Source: Tyzzerella sp. (GTDB lineage Bacteria; Bacillota; Clostridia; Lachnospirales; Lachnospiraceae). From it: a stretch of 64,000 nucleotides of DNA. A program made the position numbers and the translations under genes. Positions 124-21,683 of the stretch are shown here, piece by piece (the first letter of the stretch is position 1; every line of letters starts with the position of its first letter). The DNA is taken from positions 1-64,000 of the forward strand of contig JAFTWA010000062.1 in assembly GCA_017465565.1 (NCBI GenBank), in the 5' to 3' direction. The notes beneath the pieces are model-generated. The model saw only the letters and a list, made by a program, of their open reading frames with translations, did no database searches and was not told the origin of the DNA.

Positions 124-1284
124 ACCCATCGGACTAATAATCTTGCCATATTGCTTGTACATACTTGCAACATAGCCTTTTCCAGTCAAGCTTAACCAGT
201 CTGGATACATGGTCTTACTTGAACATTCAATACCTGCCTCAAATACATCTTCTAATTCTTTTCCAGGTCCGTGAAGATTTTCATCATATAAGAATACAAT
301 CTTAGGGAATAATACCGGTTTCTTGTGTCCTTCTTTTCCCTGCCCCTTCTGGCGAACCTCTAACATCTTAATGGTTGCTAATTTACCATATTTCGATGTA
401 TTTGTTCCTGCAGTTACTGTAATAAATGGATAGTCTCCACGGCTGGAAGATACGGAATTGAACTTGTACTCCCATCCCTGGAAGCCCTGTTCCATTTCTT
501 TTTCCAAATCAGCCCATGCAACTTCTTCTACTTTCTCATCAGAAAGACCTAAGTCTTTATATTTCTTAATCAATTTCATATGAGATTTTTCTGCAAATGG
601 TTCTAAAATATCATCTACGCTAGGCACTGTAAAACCGCCGTATTGCTGGCTCGCTGCACTGAGTACGATATCTCCGATAACGTCAAATGCAGTATCCAAA
701 GTCTTTGGCTCATTATACCAGAGATTTCCCATCTCGAAACCTCCTGTCAAGACGTTTTTAACGTCAAAGAGACAACAGTTCATAGTATCTCTTCTTGCAG
801 ACATATCATGGATGTAGATATAACCTTCGCGGATTGCCTGAATTTCTTCCACAGTGAGGAAGAACTTCTTATAAAGCTCTTTATTCAACTCATTGAAGAT
901 AAGGCTTCGCTTCGTAGAAACAAGGGCACTGTCTGTATTACTGTTCTCTTTATCTCCAATATACATGATAGACTGGCTCTTTTTGTAAACATCATCAAGC
1001 ATCTGAACGAAATCCTGCTTATAGTTTCTATAATCACGATAGCTCTTTGCTACGATTGGATTTACTTTTTCAAGTGCGCCTTCCACAACATTGTGCATCT
1101 GCGCAATCTGGATATCCTGAATACCCATCTTCTGCACTTCTTCCTCTACAAATTTACAAATGAAGTCTAATTCTTCCTGTGTAAACTTGATAAGTGCACG
1201 ATATGCCGATTTATTCACAGCCACCACTATCTTTTGTACATTAAAATCTTCTTTTGTACCGTCTTTTTTCACAACTCTAATCAT
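124..1284 (-). CDS. nrdD: Anaerobic ribonucleoside-triphosphate reductase, 5' exon (partial)
   Basis: Class III ribonucleotide reductase, which makes dNTPs from NTPs under anaerobiosis with a glycyl radical installed by NrdG. The N-terminal ~90 residues are an ATP-cone regulatory domain (starting MIRVVKKDGTKEDFNVQKI). The catalytic barrel follows, with the radical-site cysteine region MNCCLFDV near residue 170. The family is normally about 700 residues. Here the frame reaches ISPMG and then reads one intron codon (Lys) and a TAA stop at 120-118. The next expected residue is the Cys of the MGCR motif, so the rest of the enzyme should lie in a second exon beyond the left edge. ATG 1284 is chosen over GTG 1290 because AGGAG sits about 10 nt upstream of it. 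Two NrdR boxes precede the gene. Confidence 0.88.
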
Positions 1285-1318
1285 TTTCACTCTTCTCCTT
1301 TCGTATTATTTATATTTA

Positions 1319-1366
1319 CAACTATATTTAGTGCTTTCACATTATTTAAATCACTAAATACAGTGT
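1319..1366 (-). promoter_or_regulatory. Pair of NrdR boxes upstream of nrdD
   Basis: Two 16-bp near-palindromes match the NrdR consensus (ACAC-W-ATATAT-W-GTGT): one at 1319-1334 with core CTATATTTAGTG, one at 1351-1366 with core CACTAAATACAGTGT. Their starts are 32 bp apart, about three helical turns, which is the usual tandem arrangement for this repressor. The near box starts only about 35 bp before the nrdD start codon, so NrdR would bind over or just after the promoter. NrdR is known to repress ribonucleotide reductase genes when dATP is high. The nrdR gene itself is not in the window. I could not assign -35/-10 elements with confidence. Confidence 0.7.
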
Positions 1367-1471
1367 TTCTCATACTTAACTAATATTAGCATTCCCACAT
1401 ACCGCCGTCAATAAAATTCCATCTAAAATAATACACAAATTTTCACCGCCAAAAGCCCTTGATTTTTGGTC

Positions 1472-2448: not shown

Positions 2449-3765
2449 TTATTTTTCCTCCTCTATTTTAGTTTCTGATGAAATATAATTTCCCTCATTA
2501 TCCACATAACTCATATCTGTATAACAAGCTGTGGATACTGGCAATTTCTTCTGCTCCAGCTTCTGATTGACTATCATCTTAAAAATATAGTAGAACAATG
2601 CAAACGTTGGAACTCCAAGAAGCATTCCCAATACTCCAAATAGTCCACCTCCTACTACAATTGATGTCAGCACCCAGAATGGAGACAAACCGGTAGAATC
2701 TCCAAGAATTGTCGGTCCAATTACATTTCCATCTAATTGTTGCAATAATATAATGAAAATAATAAAATAGAGCCCTTTTATCGGGTCTACCAACAAAATC
2801 AAAATAGCACTTGGAACCGCACCAATGTATGGTCCGAACACTGGAATTACATTTGTCACACCTACGATTACACTGACCAATAATACGTATGGCATTTTAA
2901 GAATCGATAACCCAATAAAACAAAGCACCCCAATAATTGCAGAATCAATAATCTTTCCAATAATAAATCCGCTAAAAATCTCATTCGCTTTTCTGCCAAT
3001 GTGAATCAAAAGATTCGCACGTTTTGGTTTTAATAAGGCATAAACAATCTTCTTAACCTGTGCCAGAAATTTTTCTTTACTGAATAAAATATAGATGGAT
3101 GCCATGATTCCAACTAAAATATTCACAAGTCCATTTACAACACTGATTACCCCTGTTGTAACATTGGTTAGAAGTGTATCTGTGGTTGCAAGCAGGTCAT
3201 TCTTTACCCAATTCTCTAACATCTGACTTCCTTGGACAAGCACATTTTGCCAAATCTTTTGAACGGTAGTATTGTCACTGCCTGCCATTGCATTCAATTC
3301 CTCTATGGCATCGCTGATTTCGCCTGGAAGCGTAACAACCAGATTGCGGATACTGTTGTATAGTTCTGGAATTAACATGTTCAGCAATGCTGAAATAAGG
3401 GCAATTGCAAAAACAAGTGCAGAAAATACACCAACCGTTCTAGCAGTCTTATCAACAAGCGTTTCCTTCTTTAGCACTTTTCCTAAAACAGGTTTTGTCC
3501 ATTTCTCCACTTTTTTCATAATTGGATTTAACAAAAACGCAAATGCAAATCCATAAATAATTGGCTTTAGAACACCTAACACCGTGCCTATAACTCCTGA
3601 AAGCTCTGTAAAACGAAGCAACACAAAGAAGAAGATAATCGCTCCTACAATTACCAAAAAGGCGGTCATCCCCCTACTAAAATGTTCACGTAATTTTGAT
3701 GGTTCACTTTTTAAAAGCTGTGGCTGTTTATCATAATATGTTGTCTTATCACTTGACTTTTCCAT
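2449..3765 (-). CDS. AI-2E family (UPF0118) membrane permease-like protein
   Basis: A 438-residue polytopic membrane protein. A short soluble N-terminus with several basic residues is followed by paired hydrophobic segments near residues 35-85. A large loop (about 130-215) comes next, then a cluster of transmembrane helices through about residue 400 containing [19 protein letters not shown] and [20 protein letters not shown]. Both are signatures of the AI-2E/TqsA/YdiK family. Members export small molecules or exchange ions, and the substrate here cannot be told from sequence. The C-terminal tail is acidic. It is cotranscribed with metA (1-nt spacing), a pairing I do not recognise as functionally meaningful. 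Confidence 0.85.
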
Positions 3766-15043: not shown

Positions 15044-15312
15044 ATAAAAAAACTTCATCTCTATTCATATAGAGACGAAGTTATATCCGCGGTTCCACTC
15101 TAATAAAGAAATCTTTTATACTAAATTTCTTCACTCGAAGCACGTAACGTGTGCGATACGTATTCGACTACTAATTTGTCTTGTTCGCCGAATCGACTCC
15201 CGAATGCACTTCATATATTCTTTCCTTGGGATTGCTTTCAGCCGGTGACATTCCCTCTCTGGCAGTTCCAAATATATTACTCTTTTCGTTCCCAGTCTTT
15301 ATCATCATTATT
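15044..15312 (-). promoter_or_regulatory. T-box leader of cysS
   Basis: The minus strand carries the T-box consensus AGAGTGGAACCGCG (about 15089-15102) and an AGAGAGGGAA/CTGAAAGC stem I element near 15230-15265. It ends in an intrinsic terminator with a stem around 15047-15081 and a seven-T tail, just before the cysS ribosome site. A TGC triplet at 15208-15206 is a plausible Cys specifier codon, matching the downstream gene. Uncharged tRNA-Cys should pair with the leader and favour the antiterminator. Confidence 0.92.
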
Positions 15313-19072: not shown

Positions 19073-19079
19073 TCTCAAG

Positions 19080-19153
19080 TAGCGGGAACTGGATTCGAAC
19101 CAGCGACACTACGGGTATGAACCGTATGCTCTAGCCAACTGAGCTATCCCGCC
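19080..19153 (-). tRNA. tRNA-Met (anticodon CAT, elongator type), copy 1
   Basis: 74-nt cloverleaf starting GGCGGGATAGCTCAG. Anticodon stem TACGG/CCGTA encloses loop TTCATAC. T-loop GTTCGAATC, 3' end CCCGCTA, no encoded CCA. It matches elongator tRNA-Met rather than initiator by its GGCGG start and G1-U72 pair. The modified tRNA-Ile2 with the same anticodon cannot be fully excluded. Confidence 0.92.
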
Positions 19154-19183
19154 ATATGCAATTGTCCTAGATTTCTCTAGTAA

Positions 19184-19256
19184 TGGGACCAACAGGGCTC
19201 GAACCTGTGACCCCCTGCTTGTAAGGCAGGTGCTCTCCCAGCTGAGCTATGATCCC
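19184..19256 (-). tRNA. tRNA-Val (anticodon TAC), copy 1
   Basis: 73-nt cloverleaf starting GGGATCATAGCTCAG. Anticodon loop CTTACAA gives TAC, and the T-arm is ACAGGTTCGAGCCCTGT. Acceptor GGGATCA pairs with TGGTCCC (one T-G). No CCA encoded. Confidence 0.95.
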
Positions 19257-19264
19257 AAGAAAAG

Positions 19265-19338
19265 TAGCGGGAACTGGATTTGAACCAGCGACACCACGGG
19301 TATGAACCGTGTGCTCTAGCCAACTGAGCTATCCCGCC
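19265..19338 (-). tRNA. tRNA-Met (anticodon CAT, elongator type), copy 2
   Basis: Same as copy 1 apart from compensatory changes in the anticodon stem (CACGG/CCGTG in place of TACGG/CCGTA) and one T-loop base (TTTGAAC on the plus strand). The compensatory pair shows that both copies are under selection to fold. Confidence 0.92.
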
Positions 19339-19368
19339 ATATGTAGTTATCCTAGATTTCTCTAGTAA

Positions 19369-19441
19369 TGGGACCAACAGGGCTCGAACCTGTGACCCCC
19401 TGCTTGTAAGGCAGGTGCTCTCCCAGCTGAGCTATGATCCC
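19369..19441 (-). tRNA. tRNA-Val (anticodon TAC), copy 2
   Basis: Apparently identical to copy 1 over its 73 nt. It is the first gene of the cluster in transcription order (Val-Met-Val-Met). Confidence 0.95.
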
Positions 19442-19477
19442 ATGTCGCTAACCGACTTGCTTAGTATACTATTTCTT

Positions 19478-20042
19478 TTATATTTTGTCAACACCTTTTT
19501 TATTCTCTATTTGTATATTTTTTCTTATACTTTCCGAAATTGGCAATTTCTGAATTTCTTGACCTTTAGAAAGATATGTACATTCGGTGTAATTTTGCTG
19601 TTGATAATTCTTCACGAAAATTGCAAGAACTTTATTTGTTGGCTTAGATAATTTCCTAACATCTTCATTGTATAATGATACAGGAAAATCTACACTTTTC
19701 CCTGTTCTGAAGCCAACACTCAGGACTGCCTTCGTATTCCCTACAAAATAATCTGCCTTAATACAAATACCACTGTTGATAAAATTTCCAATCATGCAAT
19801 TATTGTATAATAACTCTGAAAGAACAGGAAGAACTATCAACTTTTGCTGTACTTTACCTTTATTATCAATTTCAAAGTCACTTTCAGAAAGTTTTCCCTC
19901 AAGACAAGCAGAATAAAACTGTTTTGCTATTTCCATCTTCCTGATAAACAATCATAAAATGCTTATTATTCAATTTTATATCGTATTCTTTAGCCGCCTT
20001 CACAATAATTTGCAGGGCAGTTTTCTTATCATATTTCGCCAT
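19478..20042 (-). pseudogene. PBECR4-like gene broken by an internal deletion and frameshift
   Basis: Two frames abut. The first starts at ATG 20042 behind AGGGGAG and reads MAKYDKKTALQIIVKAAKEY through NKHFMIVYQEDGNSKT before a stop at 19899. The second, shifted frame runs from about 19930 to 19478 and contains AKQFYSACLEGKLSESDFEI, SELLYNNCMIGNFINSGI, SVGFRTGKSVDFPV and KLSKPTNKVLAI. Together they match my memory of PBECR4 proteins (phage Barnase/EndoU/colicin/RelE-like nuclease family), minus a stretch with the LHLTGV-type motif. The break falls at GCAAAACAG (19919-19927), which reads sensibly in both frames, as expected for a deletion between short repeats. The family assignment is from memory and should be searched. 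Confidence 0.65.
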
Positions 20043-20060
20043 TCTTACTCCCCTAGTCAC

Positions 20061-20259
20061 AAAAAGGTTGCCCTTTCGGACAACCCTTTCTATTTCTTTT
20101 GACGCTGATTTTTCTGTTGTCTGCCAACTGTCCGCCCTTCTAATATGCGGCTTAAATGTGGAGTTTTTCTGTTGCTCCCCAACCTGCCAGCCTACGAACT
20201 GGCTAAGATGTCAGATTTTTAAGGTGTCAGCACACCCAGATAGACACATCTATCTTGTT
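20061..20259 (-). ncRNA. Structured RNA leader with terminator, upstream of the PBECR4-like gene
   Basis: From a consensus promoter, about 200 nt are transcribed without an ORF. Hairpins in order: 20255-20238 (AGATAGA/TCTATCT), 20236-20223 (GGTGT/ACACC), 20203-20186 (GCCAG/CTGGC), 20183-20171 (GTTG/CAAC with loop GGGAG), 20150-20132 (CCGC/GCGG), 20128-20116 (GTTG/CAAC). It ends in a GAAA-capped terminator stem at 20085-20066 followed by TTTTT. Loop GGAG (20178-20175) can pair with CTCC (20163-20160), an H-type pseudoknot. CAACAGAAAAA occurs twice (20174-20164 and 20119-20109), each after a GTTG-x5-CAAC hairpin preceded by TGGCAG. The terminator lies just before the ribosome site of the ORF. 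Confidence 0.6.
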
Positions 20260-20265
20260 AATATT

Positions 20266-20294
20266 ATTATATGAAATCCGGCTTTTTATGTCAA
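20266..20294 (-). promoter_or_regulatory. Perfect-consensus sigma-A promoter for the structured RNA
   Basis: On the minus strand TTGACA (20294-20289), exactly 17 bp, then TATAAT (20271-20266). Both hexamers are perfect, which is rare for ordinary mRNA and suggests high-level transcription of the RNA downstream. Confidence 0.85.

Positions 20295-20336: not shown

Positions 20337-21683
<1,347 letters not shown>

Follow-up and report, generated by a model that had tools for sequence, protein, structure and literature searches.

Why does a structured RNA with its own promoter and terminator stand directly in front of a PBECR4-family gene? On the minus strand of a 64,000-nt stretch of Tyzzerella sp. 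DNA, called the window throughout, the order is promoter, RNA of ~199 nt (estimated ends ~20259-20061), terminator and broken PBECR4 (PF18813) gene. The original prediction was that this may be a pairing of RNA and protein built on the general plan of type III toxin–antitoxin (TA) loci, with a different nuclease, an attenuator or a stand-alone small RNA (sRNA) being equally possible. The linkage of RNA and gene, covariation and the lack of an Rfam match support the proposed design, and both alternatives are now rated less likely. We propose, with a probability of about 75%, that the RNA is one half of a two-part module and that it binds and neutralises a cognate PBECR4 toxin. The fold and the linkage are firm; from them we strongly infer the function.

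A consensus promoter, a structured RNA and a terminator precede a broken PBECR4 gene

The promoter (20266-20294) was described from the sequence as perfect, and indeed a pattern scan found a sigma-70 type site matching 12/12 consensus positions, with TTGACA at 20294-20289, a 17-nt spacer and TATAAT at 20271-20266. Upstream of it lies a gene (20337-21671) which, from its translation, we take to be the glutamate dehydrogenase gene gdhA. The RNA probably starts near 20259 and closes with an intrinsic terminator (20061-20089), a 13-bp hairpin in the computed fold with a GAAA loop and a T run. Although this hairpin is present in the fold, the terminator is absent from the pattern-scan output for the window, probably because the stem takes up the T run. 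The terminator, the ribosome-binding site GGGGAG (20048-20053) and the ATG of the PBECR4 frame at 20042, all on the minus strand, were confirmed as first read.

The PBECR4-like frame is also real, though broken into two frames. Piece 1 (19899-20042) has 47 codons followed by a stop and covers PF18813 positions 1-31 (E 2.7e-4; 21.8 bits, under the cut-off of 27). Piece 2 (19478-19951), in a different frame, covers positions 56-187 with 90.8 bits (E 1.9e-25; gathering cut-off 27). Compared with its relatives, the window gene has a deletion of ~20 codons and a frame change, and the lost codons include a stretch with an HLTG motif that the relatives conserve.

Directly after the broken gene comes a duplicated tRNA-Met/tRNA-Val pair (19079-19442), with a second promoter-like site, TTGACA-17-TATACT (19491-19463), ahead of it. 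Elsewhere in the window, a T-box leader (15068-15302) lies upstream of a 468-aa frame (15020-13614) that presumably encodes cysteinyl-tRNA synthetase.

Loop-tail pairing ties the RNA into one interlocked fold

The RNA at 20061-20263 is more stable than expected (folding z = -3.36), and 0/200 shuffles were equally stable. From its 5′ end it comprises hairpin P0 (20238-20255), hairpin H0 (GGTG-TGCTGA-CACC, 20223-20236), tail 0 (TCTGA, 20211-20215), a spacer hairpin A1 of variable sequence (20186-20203), hairpin H1 (GTTG-GGGAG-CAAC, 20171-20183), tail 1 (CTCC, 20160-20163, 3′ of an A-rich linker), spacer hairpin A2 (20132-20150), hairpin H2 (GTTG-GCAGA-CAAC, 20116-20128) and tail 2 (TCAGCG, 20103-20108), all on the minus strand. 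The two copies of a repeated unit that had been described are both present. The nested fold contains P0, H0, A1, A2, H2 and the GAAA-capped terminator hairpin; at H1 it has a competing GGAG/CTCC helix in place of GTTG/CAAC, because a nested model is unable to show both helices. Since the H1 stem is invariant among relatives and the GGAG/CTCC pairs covary, the six hairpins and the H-type pseudoknot that were originally read from the sequence stand.

Two further helices had escaped the first reading. The loop of H0 pairs with tail 2 (GCTGA/TCAGC), and TCTG of tail 0 pairs with the loop of H2 (TCTG/CAGA). By this rule each loop pairs with one of the A-rich tails: loop 0 takes tail 2, loop 2 takes tail 0, and loop 1 takes its own tail 1 to form the H-type pseudoknot. 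The two outer helices tie the RNA into one interlocked fold, and we call this class, three hairpins with reciprocal loop-tail pairing, the ring RNA.

Against Rfam, the window RNA gave no family at the gathering cut-off, so that a match to an unrelated known family, which the original prediction had named as counting against it, was not found. At E up to 5 there were three matches, all far under their gathering scores; the best, MicX (E 0.02, 21.9 bits against a gathering score of 75), was rejected. The drum model (RF02958) did not match the window RNA at either setting.

The loop-tail helices covary among relatives

When 61 genomes were searched at the DNA level, 12 had matches, several of which were short. 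After inspection, 10 of 12 loci had the same motif (the window included, and one partial), and in most of these a PBECR4-like frame follows the terminator. We built a covariance model, R1, from nine sequences, with the loop-tail pairs kept outside the model. R1 found 36 matches in 30 of 299 genomes of the family and 28 matches in 20 of 295 genomes of the order, five other families included; the weakest matches (35-42 bits) may be degenerate copies. The covariation alignment, made with R1, holds 44 distinct sequences (46 matches from 45 hand-chosen sources). Left out were one-unit forms (L109, L110, L113, L118, L161, L166), partial or degenerate copies (L008, L114, L116, L117, L159, L162, L165), the three-unit L108, the divergent L041, L043, L047, L072 and L084, and L039, L112 and L115, which represent the same copies or genes as other loci.

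Across these 44 sequences, 97.1% of the cells at the 14 loop-tail pairs form standard pairs, compared with 82.5% after shuffling. Covarying pairs, whose absence would have spoken against the prediction, are plainly there: both partners vary in 11 of the 14, and double changes occur in 104 cells compared with 31.7 in shuffles (0/500 shuffles reach 104). When the partner was shifted by 1-3 columns, pairing fell to 21-36%. The count of further pair types showed no excess (19 compared with 19.2 shuffled). For loop 0-tail 2, the variants include GCTGA/TCAGC, GGTTGA/TCAACC, GGCTAA/TTAGCC, GTTTGG/CCAAAC and GTCCGG/CCGGAC. With the stems added, 97.3% of the whole structure of 34 pairs, 20 of them stem pairs that were used to fit the alignment, is standard and 22 pairs are changed on both sides; the pairings of spacer hairpins A1 and A2 covary as well. 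The middle unit is an H-type pseudoknot with both-side changes in all four pairs, and the outer two are tail-swapped. A chain arrangement, in which each loop would pair with the tail before it (tail 0 for loop 1, tail 1 for loop 2), reached 77.6% compared with 76.8% shuffled, and was rejected.

Ring RNAs have from one to three imperfect units in addition to H0. There are three units in L108 (1501-1637 and on) and one in L109, L113, L118, L161 and L166, where loops and tails are swapped between just two hairpins. In L173, two different ring RNAs stand in tandem (1501-1645 and 1859-2007) before one PBECR4 gene. In L041, ring-like RNAs face each other (1262-1408, plus strand; 3232-3377, minus strand) across a PBECR4 gene at 1501-2022.

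Ring RNAs are linked to PBECR4 genes

The 299 family genomes hold 75 PF18813 matches in 57 genomes. A PF18813 match follows 19 of the 36 ring RNAs, 85-200 nt further on and in the same orientation; the 17 that have none form a real minority class. Examination of 16 of these 17 loci revealed clear PBECR4 remnants beside the RNA in two (L102 and L108) and perhaps one in L109 (E 0.18); L112 shares its locus with a PBECR4 gene on the opposite strand, and the rest gave no PBECR4 signal. In the order set, a PBECR4 frame lies downstream at 19 of 26 loci (E <= 0.01), where L173 and L174 share one gene and L165 stops at a contig end. The reverse search, in which GTDB loci were fetched by PBECR4 protein with an alignment of four ring-linked proteins as query, found a ring RNA directly upstream at 17/17 loci; four of them (L175, L182, L183 and L188) are the query loci, so the new result is 13/13, all close relatives such as Eisenbergiella tayi DSM 26961 and Anaerotignum sp. 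MSJ-24. The possibility raised at the outset that the RNA occurs mostly without PBECR4 is therefore not what these three sets show, narrowly so in the family set.

These counts bear on the proposal that the RNA is a stand-alone, trans-acting sRNA that lies near PBECR4 by chance. The 17 of 36 copies without a PBECR4 match are what such an sRNA would give, but chance proximity does not lead to an RNA at every locus fetched through its protein (13 of them new), nor to an RNA-PBECR4 pair that recurs on plasmids and phages of Bacilli (see below). It also sits badly with the genes around the pair, which otherwise differ from locus to locus among the 13 fetched loci inspected. We regard a chance neighbour as highly improbable. 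An exception to the variable surroundings is a gdhA-like gene, found upstream in L181, in E. tayi L186 and in the window. Together, the differing neighbours and the carriage on phages and plasmids fit a mobile module.

Two loci have other genes after the ring RNA. In L106 (1819-2544), a ring RNA with no PBECR4 precedes a DUF3791-DUF3990 pair in which the DUF3990 frame is split, and in L113 the RNA precedes a frame that by eye resembles the first (DUF3791) frame of L106, as if another module had taken the toxin's place.

Plasmids and phages carry RNAs that obey the same rule

Protein searches also located PBECR4 genes on plasmids and phages, most of them from Bacilli; from 94 plasmid records, 13 phage records and two further phages, 11 loci were hand-chosen. 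In 10 of the 11, the upstream RNA obeys the ring rule with a different sequence. The plasmid loci are from Enterococcus faecium, Macrococcoides and Pediococcus; the phage loci are Erysipelothrix phi1605, Streptococcus Javan100, Lactococcus D4840, 50101 and PLgT-1, Latilactobacillus TMW 1.1447 P1 and Enterococcus Efs 1-1-1. At the eleventh, a Ligilactobacillus plasmid locus (L200), the element directly upstream of PBECR4 is a protein gene and not a ring RNA.

Over the ten ring loci, loop 0 and the last tail (tail N) form on average 5.9 bp (10/10 with at least 4) compared with 2.82 for non-cognate combinations, and the last loop (loop N) and tail 0 form 4.3 bp (10/10) compared with 2.5. Loop 1 and tail 1 form 3.71 bp (5/7 with at least 4; three loci are one-unit forms) compared with 2.4. 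These values were reached by 0, 0 and 21 of 20000 permutations, respectively, a test that lessens, without removing, the bias towards cognate pairs that comes from hand-picked loop and tail segments. A blind single-sequence scan ranked the expected reciprocal pair first in 7 of the 10 loci; since its score was reached by up to 14/60 shuffles for plasmid and phage loci and by 6/60 for the window, the scan is not specific. When IMG/VR was scanned with five PBECR4 proteins from Lachnospiraceae, by a method that finds close relatives, none appeared, and scans with two phage PBECR4 proteins gave one relative each.

The class of leader RNA follows the PBECR4 protein tree

Ring RNAs are not the only RNAs before PBECR4 genes. 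The drum RNA (RF02958), reportedly from Weinberg et al. 2017, gave 32 matches in 27 of the 299 genomes, and 25 of these copies precede a PF18813 match on the same strand by 14-142 nt. Upstream of the 75 PF18813 matches there are 20 ring RNAs, 26 drum RNAs and 29 cases of neither. The window's own genome has two drum-PBECR4 loci, L020 (G000:C9), with a near-full-length gene, and L046 (G000:C37), with an in-frame stop. A crude test for the ring pseudoknot in drum RNA gave 22/29 usable, with 40/5000 permutations, and we do not extend the ring fold to drum.

By eye, five further leaders (L053, L060, L061, L063 and L066) look like two tandem H-type pseudoknots, for example GGAACAG/CTGTTCC in L060, and the L061 leader has no Rfam match. 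At least three more classes were recognised by eye (L051/L052/L054/L074; L056/L075; L076/L080/L081/L083), and no Rfam match was found for the leaders of L052, L054, L056 and L076.

To relate these classes to the proteins, a tree was made from 52 PBECR4 proteins of at least 170 aa, including 8 of the 11 plasmid and phage loci; L193, L201 and L202, whose frames are split or not set, were left out. Labels for classes other than ring and drum, and for L069 as drum, were assigned by eye. RNA class follows the PBECR4 protein tree: the classes need 11 changes, the minimum for 12 labels, compared with an average of 27.2 for shuffled labels, and 0/200 shuffles were as low, in a test that is inflated by related sequences. 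The drum class (18 rows) falls on one side of a branch supported 98/95 and the tandem class (5 rows) on one supported 100/100. The ring class (19 rows) requires two changes, because the Ligilactobacillus protein that lacks the RNA falls inside the ring clade.

Leader layout and gene decay bear on the remaining readings

We next consider genes near full length, meaning PF18813 matches over the cut-off with no stop, a profile start <= 20 and an end >= 153. There are 38. A promoter matching at least 10/12 positions occurs in 36 of the 38 leaders compared with 6.0 expected from shuffling, and a script found a terminator-like hairpin in 33 compared with 7.4 expected, although for L034 the script picked a hairpin within the RNA itself and for L049 just the inner stem; by eye, each has a fuller terminator. 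The five script-negative leaders (L018, L019, L027, L035 and L036) have a longer hairpin and a T run by eye. By model, 30 of the 38 genes have a ring (12) or drum (18) RNA; of the other eight leaders, that of L069 is drum-like and seven are of other kinds.

Seen from the RNA, 12 of 36 ring RNAs have a near-full-length PBECR4 gene on the same strand and 24 do not. The window belongs to the latter: a deletion has inactivated its toxin gene, and the promoter and all three ring helices are intact. That the RNA outlives the gene, and that the near-full-length genes sampled here have such a leader, is as an antidote predicts, which is not proof.

The layout also suits a cis-acting leader, in which an attenuator or an autoregulatory protein-binding site would set read-through into PBECR4 and nothing would act in trans: RNA and gene share a strand and adjoin each other, the RNA first, and a terminator separates them. 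However, in the window the terminator (20089-20061) is 3′ of the last ring helix, and it shares no bases with tail 2 (20108-20103), so no switch between ring helices and terminator is visible. RNAs without a gene keep their fold (e.g. L013, L007, L096, L098 and L100), and the number of repeats varies from one to three units, neither of which favours a purely cis role. We consider such a leader unlikely.

An effector ribonucleoprotein, in which the RNA would be a cofactor or guide that PBECR4 needs as a defence nuclease, rather than its inhibitor, accounts for much the same genome pattern, since the same linkage and tree congruence are expected. The 24 of 36 RNAs that lack a near-full-length gene fit an antidote better than a cofactor, and by eye the alignment contains no spacer-like variable segment. 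A cofactor role therefore appears rather improbable.

PBECR4 is a predicted endoribonuclease

Ten representative PBECR4 proteins matched PF18813 and no other Pfam family over the cut-off, so that no ToxN homology was found for them in Pfam. Eight had no match in PADLOC, and neither NCBIfam nor PHROGs supplied an informative name. On the strength of the Pfam assignment, PBECR4 is predicted to be an endoribonuclease: the available text of Iyer et al. 2017 (PMC5512222) describes PBECR domains as BECR-fold RNases that occur, sometimes as solo forms, in phages and conjugative elements.

A first AlphaFold2 model was poor at residues 110-158; a second, of the L180 protein, a close relative of the window's, reached pLDDT 82.5 and pTM 0.79. 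Sequence-profile searches of the PDB returned nothing informative, and fold searches with both models found no PDB match at E <= 0.001, so catalysis is without structural support. At the same threshold the second model matched two unnamed viral models, and ToxN was not among the fold matches listed. PBECR4 and ToxN may still have a distant common fold.

A proposed model for the ring RNA module

In the proposed antitoxin model, a strong promoter would drive a ~199-nt structured RNA that is stopped at the intrinsic terminator, and occasional read-through would yield the PBECR4-family protein, a predicted endoribonuclease. Three reciprocal loop-tail helices would close the RNA into an interlocked multi-pseudoknot, which is expected to bind its cognate PBECR4 directly and inhibit it, as ToxI does with ToxN. 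Should the RNA disappear, for example through a phage that shuts down transcription in its host or through plasmid loss, the toxin would be released. Counted against the antitoxin reading are the 17 of 36 ring RNAs without PBECR4 downstream, most of those examined being without a clear remnant, together with the broken window gene, the missing PDB match, the IMG/VR result and the L200 exception.

Taken further, the data would make PBECR4 a large second family of RNA-controlled toxins with its own antitoxin fold in each clade (ring, drum, tandem H-type pseudoknots and others), give drum a function and make the ring RNA a one-piece cage; we put the chances of this wider scheme at about even. In such a cage, the swapped tails would hold the toxin copies in a single molecule, with no need for cleavage into units by the toxin.

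Few RNA antitoxins are known to act on protein toxins. If the model is true, it adds a family of toxins in which no sequence relation to ToxN is detectable, a new RNA architecture backed by covariation and a testable function for drum, an orphan Rfam family. The carriers range from the chromosomes of gut Lachnospiraceae to plasmids and temperate phages from lactic-acid bacteria and their relatives, and the reciprocal pairing rule may reveal members that sequence searches miss.

Comparison with known systems

Within the literature searched, a scope that ended short of many subscription papers and of bioRxiv, PBECR4 was not found by name, and no title or opening of an abstract linked PBECR4 or drum to an RNA antitoxin; an earlier report of the link may exist. 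In front of other PBECR4 genes the place of the ring RNA is taken by drum RNA, whose partners form another clade. The window RNA matches no Rfam family, which sets it apart from the AbiF RNA, and AbiF itself we take to be a protein family different from PBECR4. According to the accessible part of one report, the regulation of a phage-encoded AbiF system in Clostridioides difficile is RNA-based (PMC12373285). RF02958 appears in a note on covariation, the available text of which does not state a drum function (PMC7657543). A microbiome survey of structured RNAs, as far as its accessible text extends, lists ToxI candidates before ToxN and names neither drum nor PBECR4 (PMC8040213), and the available portion of Iyer et al. 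2017 mentions no RNA partner for the PBECR domains of polyvalent proteins (PMC5512222).

The closest comparison is with type III TA systems. In the accessible descriptions, ToxIN, CptIN and TenpIN loci consist of a promoter, a repeated RNA, a Rho-independent terminator and a toxin gene (PMC5086642), and are carried on plasmids, prophages and chromosomes with antitoxins that are H-type pseudoknots (PMC5086642, PMC4627078). The PBECR4 module has the same locus order, the same types of carriage and, in its middle unit, an H-type pseudoknot; the terminator between RNA and toxin gene is likewise present, in 33/38 leaders by script. In AvcID, which shows that authors also apply "type III" where an RNA antitoxin counters a toxin other than ToxN, the toxin is a deoxycytidylate deaminase and, in the text available, no terminator is predicted between RNA and gene (PMC10511110). 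The RNAs themselves differ. A type III antitoxin is a row of independent pseudoknots, with a unit reported, in the part of the source available, as 36 nt in ToxI and 45 nt in CptI (PMC4627078), and the ring RNA is a single interlocked fold whose first and last hairpins exchange tails. Type III antitoxins are encoded as tandem nucleotide repeats, a trait that the ring RNA, with H0 and between one and three imperfect units, may or may not share. Because the toxin here is PBECR4 and not of a ToxN family, we class the module as type III-like in layout rather than as a member of the ToxN group.
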